From Halomicrobium urmianum (GTDB taxonomy: Archaea; Halobacteriota; Halobacteria; Halobacteriales; Haloarculaceae), in the NCBI RefSeq assembly GCF_020217425.1, contig NZ_CP084090.1, forward strand, positions 806,001-870,000: 64,000 nucleotides of DNA, written 5' to 3'. The translations under genes were made by a program, and so were the position numbers. Within the stretch, counting starts at the first letter, position 1. Each line of letters begins with the position of its first letter. Below are positions 7,913-31,200 of the stretch, piece after piece. The notes under the pieces were generated by a model. It saw only the letters and a program-made list of their open reading frames with translations, was not told where the DNA came from and made no database searches.

Positions 7913-8033
7913 ACTACCCCTCCCTACTCGCTCACAGCGTCGCCGTTCGCTTCGGTGCGGGTTCCGTCAGACGAGGTCTGACGACGTGCAGACTGTGAGT
8001 CTGCACTGGGGCTTTCGCGTGGACTCCCGTTCT
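7913..8033 (-). ncRNA. Predicted reRNA (omega-RNA) scaffold at the tnpB 3' end
   Basis: The minus strand carries two adjacent perfect hairpins inside the tnpB 3' end: a 9-bp stem with 3-nt loop (7986-8006) and an 8-bp stem with 3-nt loop (7965-7983). They follow the 24-nt block shared with the remnant at 1..59. The guide would be the sequence just outside the element, GCGTTCGTCTGGTAGAGCGA (antisense of 7889-7908, in the aldo/keto reductase gene). RNA identity is inferred from position and structure by analogy with other TnpB systems. Confidence 0.5.
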
Positions 8034-9255
8034 GGCCGCCGTTGGCGGCAGGCTCGTAATTGCCATTCACGTTCACCGTCCCGCGATTCAAGCGCACGTT
8101 TACGGGTGCGCCTCCGCCCGACGACTTTTGCGCCGAGCGGAGATGCTTCAGACCAACGTTCTTCGCCGCGTTGTAGTCCGCATGGGGCGAGTAGCCGCAC
8201 TTCAAACACTCAAACACGTCCTGTCCGTCCACAGTCGGGCGGTTGTCTTCGTGGGTGAATCCACACCTAGAGCATCGCTGGCTCGTGTATGCAGGACTCA
8301 CCTGTTCGACTGAAATTCCGACCACCTCGGCTTTGTACTCGACGTACTCGAACAGGCGGCGGAACGCCCATGCGTGAAGCTTCTTGGCGCGAGGCATCCG
8401 CTCACGAGTCCCTGTCAGGTCTTCAAATGCAATCACATCACAGCCGGTTTCGGCGGCTTCCGCAACAAGTTCCTTTGAGACGGTGTGTAAGAAGTGATCG
8501 TAGCGTCCTGTCTCGGTGCGTCCAATCGACTGGATCGTTTCGTGGGCGGCTCGGGTCCCGCGCTGTTGGAGCGACCCGCGTCGCTTCTCGAACTCGCGGT
8601 GCCAGTGATTCAACTCCGATCCGTTCCAGAATGTGCCTGTCGAAGTGACGGCGACATTTTCGATGCCGAGGTCAACGCCGAGGACTGTCCTGTGCTCGTC
8701 GTTGCCTTTGTCGGCTGTCTCGAACTCCACATCCGCCTTTGTTCGGACGTGAAGGTAGAACTCGCCGTCGCGGTAGTGGAGTTCTGCGCCCGTCACTTCG
8801 TAGTCATCATCAAACAAGTACTCCGAGTGGGGAGTCTCGTGGTCCTCGTCAGGAAGGATGTACTCGGCGGTGATGCGTCCTTCGACGGTCGAGAGCGTGG
8901 CGTGGTCGTCGTTGAACGTCGCACACCGCTTGTCGTAGACCAGCGTCGGTGCGGAGAAGTGTGGTTTCCCCGCGTATTCGCCTTGTTTCCACCGAGTGAC
9001 GACGCTCTGTACGGCGTCGGCAGCCTTGTTGCGGGCGTTCCGAACGAGATTTGCGTGGAGTCGCGTCTCGGCCCGCACGTCGTCGTAGGTTTCGCGCTGG
9101 AGATCGGCTTTGCTCGTCGTCTTGTACTTGCCTTGCCATGCGTAATCGACGACGTAGTTGGCGGCCCACAAGAATTCGGAGATGGTTTCGTGGAGGAGGT
9201 CGGTGTCGCTGTCGGCCACATCGAGTTTGACGGGCACGGTGCGACGTACCTCCAT
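7924..9255 (-). CDS. tnpB: RNA-guided endonuclease TnpB (IS1341-type transposase-like protein)
   Basis: 443 aa. An N-terminal helix-turn-helix/wedge part is followed by a RuvC-like nuclease with Asp195 ([10 protein letters not shown]), Glu278 (IAFEDLTG) and Asp360 (HADYNAAKN). A Cys4 zinc finger (Cys328, 331, 350, 353) sits between the last two acidic residues, as in TnpB. All catalytic residues are present, so the protein looks active. Family knowledge: TnpB uses an RNA from the element's right end (omega-RNA/reRNA) to cut DNA next to a TAM, helping the element persist. The 60-residue tail after about 380 is low-complexity and overlaps the predicted RNA scaffold. With no tnpA nearby, movement would need a transposase in trans. 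Confidence 0.93.
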
Positions 9256-17391: not shown

Positions 17392-18219
17392 CTACCCCCG
17401 CCGGTCCGTAGTCCGTCGGGGGAGCGACAGCGTCGTCATCACCGGCAGATGGTCGGAGGGGTACTTGCCGTCGCCGTACGTGTCCGAACAGGCGCCGTGG
17501 ATGTGGATCTCCACCTCCGGGGTGACGAACACGTAGTCGATGCGCTTCTCCGGCACGAGGCTGGTGAAGTCGGTCACCGTCGTCTCGGGGCCGTGGTGGT
17601 CGTGGTTGGCCGCGTAGTGGGCGTCGAGCAGCGTCCGCTCGCAGCCCACCGAGGTCGTCATCCGGTCGTAGGGCTCCTCCGACTCGCGCATGTTGAAGTC
17701 GCCCGTGACGATCACGGGGTCCCGCGGGGAGAGCTCGTCGATCCGGTCCCGGAGAAGGGCCGCGCTCTCGCAGCGCGCCTCGTCGCCGGCGTGATCGAAG
17801 TGCGTGTTGTAGTGGGTGAACTCGATCCCGGTGTCGATCTCACGGAGGTGGGCCCACTTGACGAGCCGCGGGAGCATGGCGTCCCAGCCGACGCTCCCCG
17901 GCTCGTCGGGCGTCTCGGAGAGCCAGAAGGTCCCCTCGTCCTCGAGGTTGAACCGCTCGCGGTCGTAGGCGATGGCGGCGTACTCTCCGGCGCTCTCGAC
18001 GTCCCCGCCCCGCCCCGCGTACAGCCACTCGTACCGGGGCAGCCGCTCCCGGAGGTCGTCGACCTGGTCGTGCAGCGCCTCCTGGAGGCCGATCACCTCC
18101 GGGTCGTGGAACCGGATGACGCTGGCCACCGCGTCGCGGCGCTTGCGCCAGACGTACTCCGTGTCCTTCGGGTTGTCGTACCGGACGTTGTAGGTCATCA
18201 CGTCGAGACGGGAGGGCAT
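17392..18219 (-). CDS. Endonuclease/exonuclease/phosphatase (EEP) family hydrolase
   Basis: 275 aa, a complete EEP domain. Metal and catalytic residues are in order: MTYNVRYDN (Asn), GLQEAL (Glu), TGDFNM (Asp/Asn), and SDHLPVM (Asp/His), plus the preceding IDYVFV. The family includes nucleases and phospholipid/inositol phosphatases; DNA repair (ExoIII-type) is less likely because the DNA-specific insertions are not obvious, and metal-dependent phosphoesterase activity on a small substrate is favoured. The stop is followed by 24 nt to the flavoprotein gene end. It starts 3 nt after the end of the gene at 18223..18510, so the two are probably an operon. Confidence 0.88.
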   Translation of the reverse strand: MPSRLDVMTYNVRYDNPKDTEYVWRKRRDAVASVIRFHDPEVIGLQEALHDQVDDLRERLPRYEWLYAGRGGDVESAGEYAAIAYDRERFNLEDEGTFWLSETPDEPGSVGWDAMLPRLVKWAHLREIDTGIEFTHYNTHFDHAGDEARCESAALLRDRIDELSPRDPVIVTGDFNMRESEEPYDRMTTSVGCERTLLDAHYAANHDHHGPETTVTDFTSLVPEKRIDYVFVTPEVEIHIHGACSDTYGDGKYPSDHLPVMTTLSLPRRTTDRRG

Positions 18220-18222
18220 GGC

Positions 18223-18510
18223 CTACGAGTACAGCTCCGCGGTGATCTGGTCCTCGTTGTGCGTGATCACGTCGTGAACGGCCCGGAGGTCCTCGTCGCT
18301 GAGCCCCGAGTTGCCGGTCGTCGCGCCCCGGACCGTCGAGAGCCGCGAGGCGACGTAGCCTTTCGTCCAGGCGCGCGCGACGGGTGACAGTCTGTCGTCG
18401 TCCTCGTCGAGCAGCTCTTCGTCGGACAGCGACGACCGCATGTCCCTGGCCAGCCGCGCCGAGAAGTTGTTCAGGAAGAGGTCGAGGAACTTTCGCTCCG
18501 CGTCGTTCAT
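18223..18510 (-). CDS. Small helical hypothetical protein
   Basis: 95 aa from the ATG at 18510 (the frame stays open further upstream without typical composition). It is mostly alpha-helical and acidic (FLDLFLNNFSARLARDMR, then AVHDVITHNEDQITAELYS). Not recognised. Its stop codon is 3 nt before the start of the EEP gene on the same strand, indicating translational linkage, which suggests it is a partner or a regulator of that hydrolase. Confidence 0.65.
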   Translation of the reverse strand: MNDAERKFLDLFLNNFSARLARDMRSSLSDEELLDEDDDRLSPVARAWTKGYVASRLSTVRGATTGNSGLSDEDLRAVHDVITHNEDQITAELYS

Positions 18511-18809
18511 GTCGCCTGAAAGGAGCTCCACGGCCAAAGGCGTTGGCTCGCCCCCGAACGACCGCCGCTGACGGCGTCGCCGAATCTCCACTGGTCCTCG
18601 GAACCGCTCGTAGAAGCAAGCCGTTACCGGCGAGTAATCGTACATTTTCAGGCGAACGCGGGGCTTACGATAACGAATGCCCCTCGTACAGCCGACACGG
18701 TTAAAGATTCCGGAGTTCTATATCGGCCACCCTCGTCGTATAGCGGCGACTTGACAGGACCCGATTCGACAGGGACCGATCGACGCGGCGTTCACGGAAT
18801 TCGATCGCT

Positions 18810-19811
18810 ATGGTCACGATACTCTACACCTTCGACAGGCGTTTCATGTGGAAAACGTTCGAGGCGATCGACGGGCACGTCGACCGGGCGTCGGCCGCGT
18901 TACCCCTGCGGCAGTCGGCGCGGGGATCCCAGTCCTCGATCCCCGAGGTCGACGCCCCGATAGAGTCCGCCGCCGACCTCGACGCCGCAGTCGCCGAGAT
19001 AGACCCGGACGTCGTCGTCCAGAACCACCGGTTCGAGGCGGCGGTGCTGGACGAGCGGCCGTCCTACCACGACGACTACCCCGTCGTACACGTCCGCCAC
19101 GGGGCCTCCGTCGGCCGGGGCGAGGTCCACAACACCACCCGGGACCTCGGCGACGTCGTCGACGTGGCCCTCGCGCCCGGCGAGCGGTGGGCCACGGCGT
19201 ACCGCGAGTCGATGGCCGACGACGTGCGCGTCGCCGTCGTCGGCGTCCCCGAGGCCGACGACCTCGTCGCGGCCGACCCGCCCCGCGAGCGGCGGGTCCT
19301 CTACGCCCCGACCAACCACAACTACGGCGGCGGGAGCTACGTCGAGACCGCCGAGGACGTCCTCGACGTCTTCGAGGGCTCCGAATACGAACTCCGCTTC
19401 CGTCCCCACCCGATGGACCGCCAGGAGGAACCCGGCAAGTCCGTCACCGAGCGCTGCCGCGAGCGCATCGCCGACCTCCCCAACGTCGTCTTCGACGACG
19501 CCGACACCCCCCGCGAGAGCATGCTCGACGCCGACCTGCTGCTCTCCGACTACTCCGGCATCGTCACCGAGTGGCTCCACACGGGTCGCCCGCTCGCCCA
19601 GCTCACCGACGTCGCCGCCGACGCCGACGTCCCGCCGCTGGGCTATCGGACCGACGACCTCTCTATCGAGGCGATCGATCGGCTCTACGAGGACGGCTAT
19701 CCGCCGGACGTCGAGCGGCGGGTCGACGAACGGATCGCCGAACTGGGGATTCCGATGGACGGCCGCGCCGGCGAGCGGGCCGCCGAGGAGGTGCTGGCAT
19801 GCACGCAGTGA
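18810..19811 (+). CDS. TagB/TagF-like CDP-glycerol glycerophosphotransferase family protein
   Basis: 333 aa. It has the C-terminal half of the PF04464-type fold: VLYAPTNHN, ELRFRPHP, VFDDADTPRESMLDADLLLSDYSGIVTEW, where SDYSG is the nucleotide-contact motif and the preceding acidic loop is typical. In bacteria these enzymes move glycerol-phosphate or ribitol-phosphate from a CDP-alcohol to teichoic-acid chains. The region before about residue 130 is divergent. Its last 13 nt overlap the nucleotidyltransferase gene, and that pairing suggests activation of an alcohol phosphate and its transfer to a surface glycan. Exact substrate unknown. Confidence 0.78.
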   Translation: MVTILYTFDRRFMWKTFEAIDGHVDRASAALPLRQSARGSQSSIPEVDAPIESAADLDAAVAEIDPDVVVQNHRFEAAVLDERPSYHDDYPVVHVRHGASVGRGEVHNTTRDLGDVVDVALAPGERWATAYRESMADDVRVAVVGVPEADDLVAADPPRERRVLYAPTNHNYGGGSYVETAEDVLDVFEGSEYELRFRPHPMDRQEEPGKSVTERCRERIADLPNVVFDDADTPRESMLDADLLLSDYSGIVTEWLHTGRPLAQLTDVAADADVPPLGYRTDDLSIEAIDRLYEDGYPPDVERRVDERIAELGIPMDGRAGERAAEEVLACTQ

Positions 19812-20503
19812 TCCTGGCCGCCGGCGAGGGCAGCCGGATGGGCCCCCACACCGACGACGTTCCGAAGGCGTTCATGGACCTCGGCGGGGAGACGCTGTAC
19901 CGGCGCCAGCGGGACGCCATCGACCCGTACGTCGACGACGTCACCGTCGTCCTGGGCTACGCCTACGAGAACGTCGTCGATCGGCTCGGCTCGGCGCGGC
20001 CCGTGATCTTCGAGGACTGGGCCGACTACGAGAACGCCGAGTCGCTGCGCCGCGGGACGGCCGGCGTCGACGACGACGTGCTCGTGCTGAACGGGGACGT
20101 CCTCGTCGCCGGGTCCGTCATCGAGCGGGTCGTCGACCGCTTCGAGGCGGCACCTGGCCGGAGCGTGGTGGCCGCCATTCCCGGCCACCAGGAGGGCTCG
20201 ACAGCCGTCCGGTCCGACGACCGCGGCGTCGTCACCGACTACGGGATGATCCGCGGCCACCGGCACGCCGGTCTCGGCGTGGTCGATCGGTCCCACCTCG
20301 ACGAGGCCCGCGCGCACCTCGCCGCGCACCGCGACGAGTGGTACCCGGGCATCTACACCCGGGTCGTGACGGAGATGGTCCCCATCCCGTCCGGCGGTCA
20401 CGTCGAGATCAACTACCCTAGCGACAGGGCCGCCGCCCGCGACAAACTCCCGCTGGACGCCCCTGACGGACTCGACCTTCAGACGTCGGCGACCCACGAG
20501 TGA
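19799..20503 (+). CDS. LicC-like sugar/alcohol-phosphate nucleotidyltransferase
   Basis: 234 aa. The N-terminal motif ILAAGEGSRMGPHTDDVPKAF is the NTP-binding signature G-x-G-x-R...P-K, and NAESLRRG plus VLVLNGDVLVA (metal-binding Asp) follow. The order and short length match LicC-type cytidylyltransferases (phosphocholine) and related inositol/glycerol-phosphate enzymes more than large glucose-1-phosphate types. The predicted product is a CDP- (or NDP-) activated alcohol or sugar for the overlapping glycerophosphotransferase gene. ATG at 19799 chosen because it overlaps the upstream stop at 19811, a usual coupling arrangement. Confidence 0.82.
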   Translation: MHAVILAAGEGSRMGPHTDDVPKAFMDLGGETLYRRQRDAIDPYVDDVTVVLGYAYENVVDRLGSARPVIFEDWADYENAESLRRGTAGVDDDVLVLNGDVLVAGSVIERVVDRFEAAPGRSVVAAIPGHQEGSTAVRSDDRGVVTDYGMIRGHRHAGLGVVDRSHLDEARAHLAAHRDEWYPGIYTRVVTEMVPIPSGGHVEINYPSDRAAARDKLPLDAPDGLDLQTSATHE

Positions 20504-20705: not shown

Positions 20706-21401
20706 ATGCGCCTCATCGCGCACCGTGGGTGCGCCGACCAGTATCCCGAGAATACCGTCGCCGCGGTCCGGCAGTCGGCCCGGTACGCCGACGCTATCGA
20801 GGTCGACGTCCGCCGCTGTGGCTCCGGCGAACTCGTCGCCTTCCACGACGAGCGCGTCGACAGGCTGACCGACGCCGAGGGCCGCGTCGCCGACCTCCCC
20901 TGGGACCGCCTGGGCGACCTGGAAGTGCTCGACTCCGGGGAGACCGTTCCCCGCCTCCGGGCCGTCCTCGACGCCGTCCCCGAGGGCGTCCGCGTCCAGG
21001 TCGAACTGAAGGAGACCGGACTGGCCGCCGACGTCCGCGACGCCGTCGCCGGCGTCGACCGCGAGGTGGCCGTCTCCTCGTTCGACGAGACGGCGCTGGC
21101 GGCGGTCCGCGACCTGGAGTGGGACGTGCCGACCGGCTTCCTCTTCGAGTCCGATCCCGAGGCCAACCTCGCGACCGCGCTGGAGCTGGGCTGCGACGCC
21201 GTCCATCCCCACTACGACTGCTGTCTGGAGACGGACGTGGTCGACGCCGCCCACGCCGCCGGACTGGACGTGATCGCCTGGAAGGCCCTCGAAACCCGCG
21301 AGGAGTTCGCCGCGCTCCGGGAGGTCGACGTCGACGGCGCCACCGCCGACCGGTGGGACATCGCGCCGACGAGCAAGGCCGCCCCGGCGGCCTCCGACTG
21401 A
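20706..21401 (+). CDS. Glycerophosphodiester phosphodiesterase
   Basis: 231 aa. The GDPD signature is complete at the start: AHRGCADQYPENT (His5, Arg6) with the acidic EVDVRR, the HD pair in AFHDERVDRLTD, and VQVELK near the middle. The enzyme hydrolyses glycerophosphodiesters to glycerol-3-phosphate and an alcohol. Position just after the TagB/LicC-like pair (200 nt gap) suggests turnover or recycling of glycerol-phosphate-containing envelope material, but the gap holds a separate TATA-like signal (TTAATGG near 20677), so transcription may be separate. Confidence 0.88.
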   Translation: MRLIAHRGCADQYPENTVAAVRQSARYADAIEVDVRRCGSGELVAFHDERVDRLTDAEGRVADLPWDRLGDLEVLDSGETVPRLRAVLDAVPEGVRVQVELKETGLAADVRDAVAGVDREVAVSSFDETALAAVRDLEWDVPTGFLFESDPEANLATALELGCDAVHPHYDCCLETDVVDAAHAAGLDVIAWKALETREEFAALREVDVDGATADRWDIAPTSKAAPAASD

Positions 21402-21961: not shown

Positions 21962-24688
21962 ATGGCCGAGCGAACGGAACGTGACGGATGGACCGTCGAC
22001 GTGACGCCCCTCCTCGAATTCGTCCGGCGGTTACCGCACGTTCCCTCCTACCTCCTCCTCGCGATGGCGTTCATGTTCTGGGTCCGCGCGCAGTCCTACG
22101 GCAACTTCGTCCGCGACGACGGGAGCGTCCGGCTCACCGCGGTCGACTCGTGGTACCACTGGCGGACGACGATGTACACGGTCCGCAACTGGCCGCAGAC
22201 GATGCCGTACGACCCGTGGACCGCGTTCCCGACGGGCACCTACGTGGGCCAGTTCGGCACGCTGTTCGACCAGATCGTCGCGACCGCCGCCATACTCGTC
22301 GGCGGGGGCGATCCGACGCCGGAGACGGTCCTCTCGGTCGCGCTGCTGGCCGTCCCCGCCATCGCCGCGCTGGTCGCGATCCCCACGTACTTCGTCTGCA
22401 AGCGCCTCGGCGGGCGGATCGGCGGACTGGCTGGCGTGGTCCTGCTCGCGCTGTTCCCCGGTCGGTTCATCGGGAAGAGCACGGTGGGGATGTACCAGCA
22501 CCACGCGGCCGAGGTCCTGTTCATGTCCCTGGCGGTCCTGGCGACGATGGTCGCGCTGACCGTCGCCGAGCGCGAGCGGCCGAGCTACGGGCGCGTCGCC
22601 GATCGCGAGTGGGGGACGCTCCGTCGGCCGGCCGGCTACGCCGCCCTCGCGGGCGTCGCGGTCGCGCTCTACCTCTGGGTGTGGCCGCCAGGGGTCGTCC
22701 TCGTCGGGATCCTCGCGATCTTCTTCGCGATCGAACTGAGCGCGCGGTACGTCGGCGGCGGGAGCCCAGAACCGCTCGCGTTCGTCGGCGCGGTGGCGCT
22801 CGCGGTCACCGGGCTCCTCACCACGGCGACGATGGAGGTCACCGAGATCCACCCGGCGGCCGAGGGGCCGCTGCAACCGGCGCTCGCCTTCGCCGTCGCC
22901 GGCGGCTGCGTCTTCATGGCGTGGCTCGCCCGCGAGTGGGACCGTCGCGGGATCGACGAGCGGTACTACCCGGCCGCCGTCGCCGGCGGCGCCGCGGTCT
23001 CGATGGCCGTGATGGCGCTCGTCCTGCCCGAGGTCTGGGACCGGATCCTCCGGGGCGTGTACGGTCGACTGATCCCGGTCGGATACACGTCGACGGCGCT
23101 CACCGTCCCCGAAGCGGGGCCGCCGGACGACCCCCTCGGGTTCTTCTACGAGCAGTACGGTCCGGCGTTCCTCACGGGGTTGATCGGCCTGGCCGCGCTC
23201 GCCGCCCGGTCCGTCCTCGGGGACGACCACCGGGCCGAACACGTGCTGATCGTCGTCTGGGCGCTGGTCCTCACGTCGATGGCGGTCACCCAGCAGCGCT
23301 TCCACTACTACTACGTCGCGCCGGTCGCGGCGCTGAACGCCGCCCTCGTCGGGGAGATCGTCGGCGGGATCGACCGCAGCGACCTCCCGCAGGTGCGCGT
23401 GATCGACGTCGGTCGCGTGGCGGTGCTCCTGGGGGTGGCGGCTGTCGTGCTGCTCCCGCTGACGCCGCTGGCGGCGCCGGCGACGGTCCTCGACGCCGGG
23501 GGTGACCAGCGCCCCAGCCGGGACGCCATGCGCTGGCAGAGCACGAACCACTGGCTGGAACAGAACAGCCCCGCACCCGGCGCGTGGGGCGGCGCGGACA
23601 ACGCGGACGAGTTCGGCTACTACGGCACCTACCCCGTTCCGGAGGACGACGACTTCGCGTACCCCGAGGGGGCCTACGGCGTGATGTCGTGGTGGGACTA
23701 CGGCCACATCATCACGGTCCAGGCCGAGCGCATCCCGCACGCGAACCCCTTCCAGCAGAACGCCCGCTCGGCGGCCGCCTTCTTCACGGCGGACTCGGAG
23801 GAACGGGCGCAACGCGTCCTCGAAGCGATCCCCGCCGCCGAGCGGTCCGACGACCTCAACCAGTTCGACGAGGCCGAACTGGACGCGCTCGCCGACGAGC
23901 GAACCGCCCAGCAGCGGGGCGAGGAGACCCGGTACGTCATGATCGACGACGAGATGGTCGGCGGGAAGTTCGAGAGCATGCGGACCTACGCCGGCGAGGA
24001 CACCGGCACGTACCGGGAGTCCCGGGAGGTCCGGGTGAACGAGGACGCGAGCACCGTCAGCGGGACCGTCACCGCGCCGGCGCGCAACGACGCCTACGAC
24101 GACACCGTGCTCTCGCGGCTCTACTTCGACGACGCCGACGGGATGGAGCACTACCGGCTCGTCCACAACGACGACCAGCAGTCGCAGTTCGTCACCATCG
24201 CGGTCTCGCGCGACGGCGGCGAGAGCTGGGACCCCGAGTACGTCAACCGGCCGGTGACGCCGAGCCTCGCGGAGTCGCTCTCCGAACTGCAGGACGACCC
24301 CGACGTCGAGGTCGCCGTCTACGACGTGCGCATGCAGCCCGTGGTGAAGGTCTTCGAGCGCGTCGAGGGCGCGCACCTGAACGGCACCGTCGACGCGCCC
24401 GCTGGGACGACGGTGACCGCCGAACTCGAACTCACCACCGAACAGCGCGACCGGACGTTCACCTACACGCAGACCGCGACCGTCGGCGAGGACGGCGAGT
24501 TCTCGATGACGGTGCCGTACGCGACGCGCGAGGACGCGGACGTCGAGGACGGCTACACTGACAGCGGCGTGACTGCCGAGGGCACCTACGAGATCAGCGT
24601 CGACGGCGAGCCCGTCGGCACCGCCGATGTCGCCGAGAGCACGCTCTACGACGGTGGGACGGGCGAGGTCACGCTGGACGGTGGGTGA
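21962..24688 (+). CDS. aglB: Oligosaccharyltransferase AglB (STT3 family)
   Basis: 908 aa. It transfers a lipid-linked glycan to Asn in N-x-S/T sequons of exported proteins. The acidic metal-binding motif VDSWYHWRT (first outer loop), the catalytic signature WWDYG at residues 577-581 and the downstream HANPFQQN are all visible. About 13 helices fill the first 520 residues, and the remaining 390 residues form the extracellular domain. A TATA-like CCTTATT lies about 25 nt ahead of the ATG. Nearby are a TagB-like enzyme (18.8 kb) and a secreted protein with many sequons (28.2-31.2 kb), consistent with a surface-glycosylation neighbourhood. Confidence 0.95.
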   Translation: MAERTERDGWTVDVTPLLEFVRRLPHVPSYLLLAMAFMFWVRAQSYGNFVRDDGSVRLTAVDSWYHWRTTMYTVRNWPQTMPYDPWTAFPTGTYVGQFGTLFDQIVATAAILVGGGDPTPETVLSVALLAVPAIAALVAIPTYFVCKRLGGRIGGLAGVVLLALFPGRFIGKSTVGMYQHHAAEVLFMSLAVLATMVALTVAERERPSYGRVADREWGTLRRPAGYAALAGVAVALYLWVWPPGVVLVGILAIFFAIELSARYVGGGSPEPLAFVGAVALAVTGLLTTATMEVTEIHPAAEGPLQPALAFAVAGGCVFMAWLAREWDRRGIDERYYPAAVAGGAAVSMAVMALVLPEVWDRILRGVYGRLIPVGYTSTALTVPEAGPPDDPLGFFYEQYGPAFLTGLIGLAALAARSVLGDDHRAEHVLIVVWALVLTSMAVTQQRFHYYYVAPVAALNAALVGEIVGGIDRSDLPQVRVIDVGRVAVLLGVAAVVLLPLTPLAAPATVLDAGGDQRPSRDAMRWQSTNHWLEQNSPAPGAWGGADNADEFGYYGTYPVPEDDDFAYPEGAYGVMSWWDYGHIITVQAERIPHANPFQQNARSAAAFFTADSEERAQRVLEAIPAAERSDDLNQFDEAELDALADERTAQQRGEETRYVMIDDEMVGGKFESMRTYAGEDTGTYRESREVRVNEDASTVSGTVTAPARNDAYDDTVLSRLYFDDADGMEHYRLVHNDDQQSQFVTIAVSRDGGESWDPEYVNRPVTPSLAESLSELQDDPDVEVAVYDVRMQPVVKVFERVEGAHLNGTVDAPAGTTVTAELELTTEQRDRTFTYTQTATVGEDGEFSMTVPYATREDADVEDGYTDSGVTAEGTYEISVDGEPVGTADVAESTLYDGGTGEVTLDGG

Positions 24689-28220: not shown

Positions 28221-31200
28221 TTACGCGTCCTGCTGGACGGTGACGCTCGCGTTCGCCAGCACCGTTCTGTTGTCGACCACGAACGGACCGTCCTCGGTCC
28301 CGTTGGTGGCGACGAAGTCGAACGTCTCGTTGTCGGTCGTCTCCTGATGCGCCATCGCGATCTGGACGTCACCCTGGGTGAGCGCCGACTCCTGGAACTC
28401 GGCGCCGGTGACGTTGAACAACTCGATCGTCACGTTCTCGTGCGTTCCGGCCTCGAGGTACTCGGAGACGCCGATGACGCTATCGACGGTCTCGTTAGCC
28501 GTGTACAGCGAGGAGTTGTGGATCGCGACGTAGCCGGCGTCGCTCAGCGTGACGCTATCGATCACGACTGTCGAGCCGTTCGAGACCTGGTTCTCGAAGG
28601 TCACCGAGGTCTCGTTGGCCGCGACGGCGGTCTCGTTGTCGACGGTTTCGTTGTCGTCGATGATCCCGACGGTTTCGTTGTCGTCGATGATCCCGACGGT
28701 TTCGTTGTCGTCGACGTCGGTTTCGTTGTCGACGACGTCGGTCTCGTTATCGACGACGTCGGTCTCGTTGTCGGTCTCCTCGATGATCTCCAGGGTCACC
28801 GAGGCGTTGTCGACGACCGGTTCGCCGTCACTGAGGTAGGGACCGTCCTCGGTCCCGTTCGTCGCGACGAAGTCGAACGTCTCGTTGTCGTTCGTCTCCT
28901 GGTGTGGCATCGCCGTCAGGCGGTAGTCGTCGAGGACGTCCCGGTCGTACTCGGCTCCGGAGACGTTGAAGAGCGTGACGTTCACGTCCTCGTGCGTCCC
29001 GGCCTCGAGGTACTCCGAGACCCCGACGACGCTATCCACGGCCGCATTCTCCGTCGCGTTCTCCGCGTACAGAGAGGAGTTGTGGATCGCGACGTAACCG
29101 CCCTCGGGAACGGTGACGTTGTCCACCGTGACGACGGTGCCGTTCGTGATATGCCGCTCGAGGTTCACCGAGGCTTCCTCGGTTTCGTTGTCGACGACGG
29201 CCGTGTCGTTGTCGTCGATGATCCCGACGGTCTCGTTGTCGTCGACGTCGGTCTCGTTGTCGACGGTTTCGTTGTCGTCGATGATCCCGTCGGTTTCGTT
29301 GTCGTCGACGTCGGTCTCGTTATCGACAATCGCATCGGTCTCGTTGTCGACCATCTCGGTCTCGACGGCTATCGACGCGTTGTCGATGACGAGTTCACCG
29401 TCGCTGAGGTAGGGACCGTCCTCGGTCCCGTTGGTGGCGACGAAGTCGTACGTCTCGTTGTCGGTCGTCTCCAGGTGAGGCATCGCGGTCAGCTGCTGGT
29501 CCTCCTGGAGCGCGGTCTGATCGAACTCGACGCCGGAGACGTTGTAGAGCGTGACGTTCACGTTCTCGTGCGTCCCGGGTTCGAGGTACTCGGAGACGCC
29601 GATGACGCTGCCGAGGGCGTCACCCTCGAACAGCGAGGCGTTGTGGATTGTCACGTAACCGCCCTCGGGGACGGTGACGTCGTCCACCGTGACGACGGTG
29701 CCGTTCGAGGTCTGGTTCTCGAAGGTGACCGAGGCCTCCTCGGTCTCGTTGTCGACGACGTCCGTGTCGTTGTCGACGACGTCGGTTTCGTTGTCGTCGA
29801 TGATCCCGACAGTCTCGTTGTCGTCGACGCCGGTCTCGTTATCGACGACGTCGGTCTCGTTGTCGTCGATGATCCCGACAGTCTCGTTGTCGTCGACGTC
29901 GGTCTCGTTATCGACGGCGTCGGCCTCGACGGTTATCGACGCGTTGTCGATGACGAGTTCACCGTCGCTGAGGTAGGGACCGTCCTCGACCCCGTTGCTC
30001 ACGACGAAGTCGTACGACCCGTTCTGGGTGTCCTCCACGTGAGGCATCGCGGTCAGCTGCTGATCCTCCTGGAGGGCGTCCCGATCGAACTCGGCGCCGG
30101 TGACGTTGAAGAGCGTGACGTTCACGTCCTCGTGGTCCCCGGGCTCGAGGTACTCGGAGACGCCGATGACGCTACCGACGGCGTCGCCCTCGAACAGCGT
30201 CTCGTTGTGGATCGCGACGTAGCCGCCGTCGCTCAGCGTGACGCCGTCGACCACGACGGTGGTACCGTTCGAGGTCTGGTCCGCGAAGGTCACTGCCGCT
30301 TCCTGCTGGTCGGCAGTTTCGTTGTCGACCTCGGTCTCGTTGTCGATGATACCGACGGTCTCGTTATCCTCCGGGACTTCGTCACCCGGGGTAACCTCAT
30401 CGGGCGTCTCCGTCTCCGTCGGAGTTTCAGTCTCCGTCTCAGTCGGAGTCTCGGTTTCCGTCTCCGTCTCAGTCGGAGTCTCGGTTTCCGTCTCCGTCTC
30501 AGTCGGAGTCTCGGTTTCCGTCTCAGTCGGAGTCTCGGTTTCAGTCTCCGTCGGAGTCTCGGTTTCCGTCTCAGTCGGAGTCTCGGTTTCAGTCTCCGTC
30601 GGAGTTTCAGTCTCCGTCTCAGTCGGAGTCTCGGTTTCAGTCTCCGTCGGAGTTTCCGTCTCGGTAGGCGTCTCCGTCTCCTCGGGCGCGACGCCCGGGG
30701 ATTCGATGGTCAGCGTGCCCACGGAGAGGTCCTCGACGGTGAGCGACTCGGCACTCAGGTGTCCGTTCAGGAGGACTCCCTGAAGCGCGGACGCCTCCGT
30801 CGAGGCGCCCTCGAAGGTCACGCGGTCGGCCGAGACGCCTTCGAGCGTGACCGATTCGATCTCGGCGTCGATCGTCGCGACGCCGTCTTCGACGGTGATC
30901 GACGCCGAGTCGATCGAACCGATCTCGACGCGTTCGGCCTCGAAGCCTTCGACGTTATCGCCGATAGTGGCCTCGAACCCGTCGCGCATCGGCTCGTCCG
31001 TGCTCCGGAGCTCGTCCAGTGATATGGTCAGGTTGGACACCGTGACGTTCGACATCGTGACCGTCTCGGCCTGGACGTCTTCGGCGACGACGCTCTGGGC
31101 GTTACCTTCCTGCTGATTGGCCGCTCCAACTCCTGTGAACGCGACTGCGGTTCCCGCCGAGAGTACGACGGTCATCGCGAGGAGCAGCGCTTTCAGCCCG

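Follow-up and report, generated by a model that had tools for sequence, protein, structure and literature searches.

A patchily distributed three-gene cassette of haloarchaea, sometimes carried on plasmids and lying amid unrelated genes, combines a PF04464-type (TagB/TagF-like) transferase (gene 1), a LicC-like nucleotidyltransferase (gene 2) and, as a genuine third member, a glycerophosphodiester phosphodiesterase (GDPD, gene 3). The copy described here lies in a 64,000-nucleotide stretch of the Halomicrobium urmianum genome, referred to as the window. We lean toward a phosphodiester pathway in which gene 2 would form a CDP-alcohol, gene 1 would pass on its alcohol-phosphate portion, and the GDPD would cleave and so recycle the resulting phosphodiester.

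Organization and conservation of the cassette

Gene 1 (18810..19811, plus strand, 333 aa) encodes a divergent GT-B transferase and gene 2 (19799..20503, plus strand, 234 aa, ATG at 19799) a nucleotidyl(cytidylyl)transferase. The 13-nt overlap between them (19799..19811, plus strand), already described by the initial annotation, is exact, and GC3 is 0.93 in each frame. The two genes are not a chance arrangement, because both proteins and the overlap are conserved in other haloarchaea; identity to the other haloarchaeal copies is 55-77% for the gene 1 protein and 47-75% for that of gene 2. Gene 1 is present in 19 of 292 sampled Halobacteria genomes (carriers at E≤4e-110, the remaining genomes all weaker than 1e-5), and gene 2 adjoins it in the same orientation in every carrier. 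A scan of GTDB species genomes revealed further carriers in Halobaculum, Halorientalis, Haladaptatus, Halorussus, Natronorubrum, Haloterrigena, Natrinema, Haloarcula, and Halomicrococcus. All 34 distinct loci compared retain an overlap of 13 nt; for two of them a shorter value is read solely because the aligned match starts a few residues inside gene 2. These counts bear out the synteny across haloarchaea that had been proposed as a check. Pairwise distances correlate between genes 1 and 2 (r=0.96) and between genes 1 and 3 (0.89).

Gene 3 (20706..21401, plus strand, 231 aa) starts 202 nt past the end of gene 2, in line with the distance of about 200 nt first given for it, and encodes a cytosolic GDPD. 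The match to PF03009 scores 110 bits against a cut-off of 23.6, and the alignment contains all of the GDPD motifs HRG...PENT, E.D, and HD. A GDPD gene follows gene 2 in 31 of the 34 loci after a gap of 36-240 nt, and may be transcribed separately from genes 1 and 2. In a comparison with 20 other haloarchaeal GDPDs, a branch with support of 100/98 sets those of the cassette apart. The cassettes without a GDPD (L057-L059) come from one family and include that of Halobaculum sp. XH14 (L059); the cassette of Halobaculum saliterrae (L076) has the GDPD gene. The retained overlap, the strict pairing of genes 1 and 2, and a GDPD gene of a separate clade at nearly all loci identify the three genes as a unit.

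Another hydrolase gene is a recurrent, but not universal, neighbor. An endonuclease/exonuclease/phosphatase-family (EEP) hydrolase gene, found in the window at 17392..18219 (minus strand), sits beside the cassette in 6 of the 19 sampled genomes (the window's and five others), including all three without a GDPD. It recurs jointly with a small gene lacking a Pfam family (in the window upstream of the cassette at 18223-18645, or to 18510 if a later start is used, minus strand) at L055-L058, and is also present at L059. The plasmid cassette of Halobaculum salinum likewise has an adjoining EEP gene and no GDPD. Because EEP genes accompany cassettes without a GDPD, a phosphodiesterase-type partner of genes 1 and 2 may be general.

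Of the genomes sampled from the window's own genus, half lack the cassette, and plasmid-borne copies occur in Haladaptatus and Halobaculum, so its history likely involves gain and loss or horizontal transfer.

Gene 2, a LicC-like nucleotidyltransferase

By sequence, gene 2 is nearest to the alcohol and phosphonate cytidylyltransferases LicC, PntC, and IPCT rather than to a glucose-1-phosphate enzyme, and is predicted to use CTP and an alcohol phosphate. The initial annotation had noted the nucleotide signature (GxGxR at residues 9-13, PK at 22-23) and a likeness to LicC, which profile and fold comparisons reinforce. Among PDB chains, the gene 2 family profile ranks LicC (1jyk) first with 1.4e-10, followed by an archaeal sugar nucleotidyltransferase, IPCT, and PntC. 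Fold matches to the gene 2 AF2 model (pLDDT 86) are headed by LicC, with PntC second. Residues R13, K23, and D100 are invariant in all 19 proteins and correspond to R16, K26, and D112, the catalytic set of IPCT (PMC12275187). The stretch W74..N79..S82-L83 fits YNNFYSL of LicC, a site at which the sugar nucleotidyltransferase 5z09 has GTGAA. The best curated NCBIfam matches were AglF (63 of 400 bits) and archaeal GlmU (62 of 292 bits), all far under cut-off; because neither exceeds roughly a fifth of its cut-off, AglF and GlmU were set aside as identities for gene 2.

Gene 2 shares with LicC and its kin (PntC, IPCT, CpgD) the best sequence and fold matches, the catalytic Arg/Lys/Asp set, the N..SL motif, and its length. 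It differs in being only ~18% identical, in having a PF04464-type partner enzyme, and in the absence of LicD (PF04991) from the window's genome, for which reason a lic phosphocholine system was set aside. The example of CpgD shows that the nucleotidyltransferase family of gene 2 makes CDP-alcohols for phosphodiester transfer (PMC12275187).

Gene 1, a PF04464-type transferase with an altered donor site

Gene 1 is a diverged branch of PF04464 whose donor may differ from CDP-glycerol. The window copy matches the PF04464 profile only in part and scores barely above the cut-off (24.3 bits against 22.1), and all 19 orthologs match it (best E=6e-11). Aligned by hhalign to 21 full-length PF04464 proteins of haloarchaea, the gene 1 profile reaches 98% (E=2e-13, 248 columns), against 0.2% in a single Epimerase_2 control. 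The SDYSG region (residues 246-250), by which gene 1 was originally assigned to PF04464, is accompanied by H97-G98, YAPT at 165-168, R198-P-H200, and E254. The hhalign alignment places H97-G98 at the WHG site, R198-P-H200 at the HP site, and SDYSG opposite TDYSS. Both H97 and H200 are invariant in the 19 gene 1 proteins, line up with H127 and H260, themselves invariant in the 21 full-length members, and occupy the sites of TagF H444 and H584, respectively. The two catalytic histidines of TagF and CgoT act as base and pyrophosphate ligand (PMC11666461).

The donor site departs from this pattern. Gene 1 lacks the PF04464 donor-site residues HGxPxK, PRxD, and S-S-x3-D, as judged against the published CDP-glycerol site (PMC11666461). 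The arginine of PRxD, at a position that is probably that of CgoT R542, is Arg or Lys in all 21 full-length haloarchaeal proteins and an invariant glutamate (E148, PEAD) in the 19 gene 1 proteins. HGxPxK is changed to HGASxGR and S-S-x3-D to S-G-x3-E, each invariant or nearly so. With these substitutions, the donor may be other than CDP-glycerol.

The AF2 model of gene 1 has a GT-B fold at mediocre confidence (pLDDT 72.5); built on 19 close sequences, it does not reliably place the two domains or decide the subfamily. Its Foldseek matches, headed by a UDP-GlcNAc 2-epimerase, include both such epimerases and TagF. Epimerase_2 is matched by just 1 of the 19 gene 1 proteins (E=0.025), and, given the PF04464 matches of all 19 and the hhalign control, identity as a UDP-GlcNAc 2-epimerase was rejected. 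A single-sequence PDB search with gene 1 returned nothing useful, and a profile search returned only PaaA matches (E≥0.006), judged to be chance.

Like TagB/TagF/CpsA-type CDP-glycerol glycerophosphotransferases, gene 1 has both catalytic histidines, YAPT, SDYS, a GT-B fold, and a partner cytidylyltransferase gene. Unlike them, it is shorter, has changed donor-site residues, is not in a glycan cluster, and has a cognate cytosolic GDPD.

Recurrence of the nucleotidyltransferase-PF04464 pairing

Pairing of a nucleotidyltransferase with a PF04464 transferase recurs independently of the cassette. The four next-best relatives of gene 2 (L070-L073, ~32-38% identity) are encoded 0.04-1.8 kb from full-length PF04464 genes (182-236 bits), and in a polysaccharide cluster on a Halorussus aquaticus plasmid, the gene for a 40% relative is separated by 9 nt from the PF04464 gene that follows it. 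The window's genome contains a second pair (L074:7636-9548; G000 contig C1 ~1489636-1491548), in which a full-length PF04464 gene (240 bits) overlaps a LicC/IPCT-like nucleotidyltransferase gene by 4 nt and an FkbM methyltransferase gene adjoins. A GxGxR..PK nucleotidyltransferase was found within ~1.5 kb at 21 of 30 full-length PF04464 loci. In a Fermentibacteraceae bacterium (L095:2732-6804), a LicC-like nucleotidyltransferase gene is followed by three consecutive PF04464 genes, and the first two junctions overlap. TagD (TIGR01518) exceeds its cut-off in none of the 19 cassette genomes. This recurrence suggests that, where haloarchaea lack TagD, the usual partner of a PF04464 transferase is a LicC-type enzyme. 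The initial view of a bacterial-type pair thus holds in its family relations, strict pairing, and independent recurrence, but the key positions of gene 1 differ from those of full-length PF04464 proteins.

Genomic setting and cell location

The flanks of the cassette vary by lineage and include genes for IleRS, UDG, a HIT protein, deoxyhypusine synthase, an AI-2E-type permease/transporter, and Nramp. In one family the site is stable, with IleRS/UDG on one side of the cassette and a HIT/archaeal prepilin-peptidase block on the other (L069:3067-12343; same block at L060-L067). No polysaccharide glycosyltransferase or exporter was recognized beside the cassette in scanned or annotated neighborhoods; one plasmid cassette locus has an upstream ABC transporter whose substrate is not assigned. 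The bacterial wall teichoic acid pathway differs on this point, as well as in having TagD.

In the window, a gene for an AglB-type oligosaccharyltransferase (21962-24688; STT3, AglB core, and AglB_L1 domains) starts 560 nt past the end of the GDPD gene. It has no counterpart next to the cassette at the other 18 loci, and an N-glycosylation cluster with AglB was set aside because this neighbor is unique to the window. Signal peptides, twin-arginine signals, and membrane-type hydrophobic segments are absent from all three cassette proteins.

Other features of the window are recorded here in their own right. Past AglB, from 24801 onward, lies what looks like an amino-acid-type ABC importer operon. 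A lower-GC stretch near AglB encodes a protein of 984 aa that looks secreted and contains four DUF7282 repeats (28221-31175, minus strand), possibly a surface glycoprotein. A TnpB/IS605 OrfB-type gene with a Cas12f1-like TNB domain (7924-9255, minus strand) lies in a low-GC island (GC 0.60).

Proposed pathway and alternatives

In the proposed pathway, gene 2 would convert CTP and an alcohol phosphate to a CDP-alcohol, most likely CDP-glycerol. The soluble gene 1 protein would transfer the alcohol-phosphate to a hydroxyl of an intracellular acceptor, either a small metabolite or a lipid or glycolipid at the cytosolic face, with chemistry as in TagF in which H97 would serve as the base and H200 would act on the pyrophosphate. 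The GDPD would then hydrolyze the glycerophosphodiester, and the product would be remobilized or edited. Glycerol is favored as the alcohol because of the GDPD partner and the PF04464 family, whereas E148 and the wide variety of substrates used among LicC relatives call for caution. An intracellular product, whether a soluble phosphodiester or a lipid headgroup, is favored because the GDPD is cytosolic and no glycan cluster accompanies the cassette.

Parts of this scheme have counterparts elsewhere. GlpQ-like GDPDs hydrolyze glycerol phosphodiesters; gene 3 shares with them PF03009 and the expected release of glycerol phosphate, and differs in being cytosolic and encoded with a synthetic pair. 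In the compatible-solute pathways of hyperthermophiles, the phosphotransferase is a membrane CDP-alcohol phosphotransferase, not a PF04464 protein, and we know of no GDPD partner of these pathways. They resemble the cassette proposal in their two-enzyme scheme: for glycerophosphoinositol and di-inositol phosphate, a cytidylyltransferase and then a phosphotransferase yield a soluble phosphodiester (PMC8262930, PMC12275187). Phosphodiesters built from CDP-alcohols have bacterial and hyperthermophile precedents (PMC12275187, PMC8262930), but not with the gene combination of the cassette.

The initial annotation proposed an archaeal phosphate-linked surface glycan or a glycan tailoring step. On such a reading, the pair would put phospho-alcohol units on a surface glycan or N-glycan, in a tailoring step resembling that of teichoic acids, and the GDPD would serve in turnover. 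This is how the PF04464 and LicC families act in bacteria, divergent relatives of the pair sit in polysaccharide clusters of other haloarchaea, and AglB is close by in the window. However, the scanned or annotated cassette neighborhoods lack a glycan cluster, the AglB neighbor is not conserved, and a GDPD that lacks both a signal peptide and a membrane segment would not be expected to encounter an exported polymer. With the other two proteins equally devoid of such segments, the surface-glycan claim is not supported for the cassette, and we regard this reading as unlikely. More improbable still is that gene 1 encodes a conventional GT-B sugar transferase, or an enzyme resembling epimerases, supplied with a nucleotide sugar by gene 2 acting as a sugar-1-phosphate nucleotidyltransferase (AglF/GlmU-like). 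The NCBIfam matches of gene 2 and the epimerase at the top of the gene 1 Foldseek list would fit such enzymes, but the consistent PF04464 matches and the hhalign control, the N..SL motif in place of GTgaA, the LicC/PntC-first rankings, and the association with a phosphodiesterase all argue against it.

The choice of alcohol is a finer question. A CDP-alcohol of ethanolamine, choline, inositol, or glycerate, with the GDPD-fold enzyme cleaving that phosphodiester or acting in salvage, is possible if somewhat doubtful; this is a variant of the proposed pathway, and the confidence given to each overlaps with that given to the other. Among relatives of gene 2, the substrates include phosphocholine, inositol phosphate, aminoethylphosphonate, and phosphoglycerate (PMC12275187), and the replacement of arginine by E148 could accommodate a headgroup that is cationic or uncharged. 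Yet a GDPD clade specific to the cassette speaks for a glycerophosphodiester, and the genome of the window has no LicD.

Implications

The three genes already carry public-record labels (CDP-glycerol glycerophosphotransferase family, NTP transferase domain, and GDPD), and literature searches on CDP-glycerol, CDP-2-glycerol, GDPD, and teichoic-type polymers in haloarchaea found no paper describing the cassette. The preferred reading links these generic labels in a single pathway that is open to testing, whose product would be a phosphodiester, either a metabolite or a lipid, for which we found no earlier report in haloarchaea. More tentatively, the cassette may specify an archaeal cytosolic pathway, spread horizontally among haloarchaea, that makes a new glycerophosphodiester (an osmolyte, a phosphate or carbon store, or a modified lipid headgroup) and has a cognate GDPD to undo it. 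If true, this would be, to our knowledge, the first use of the teichoic acid polymerase family outside surface polymers.
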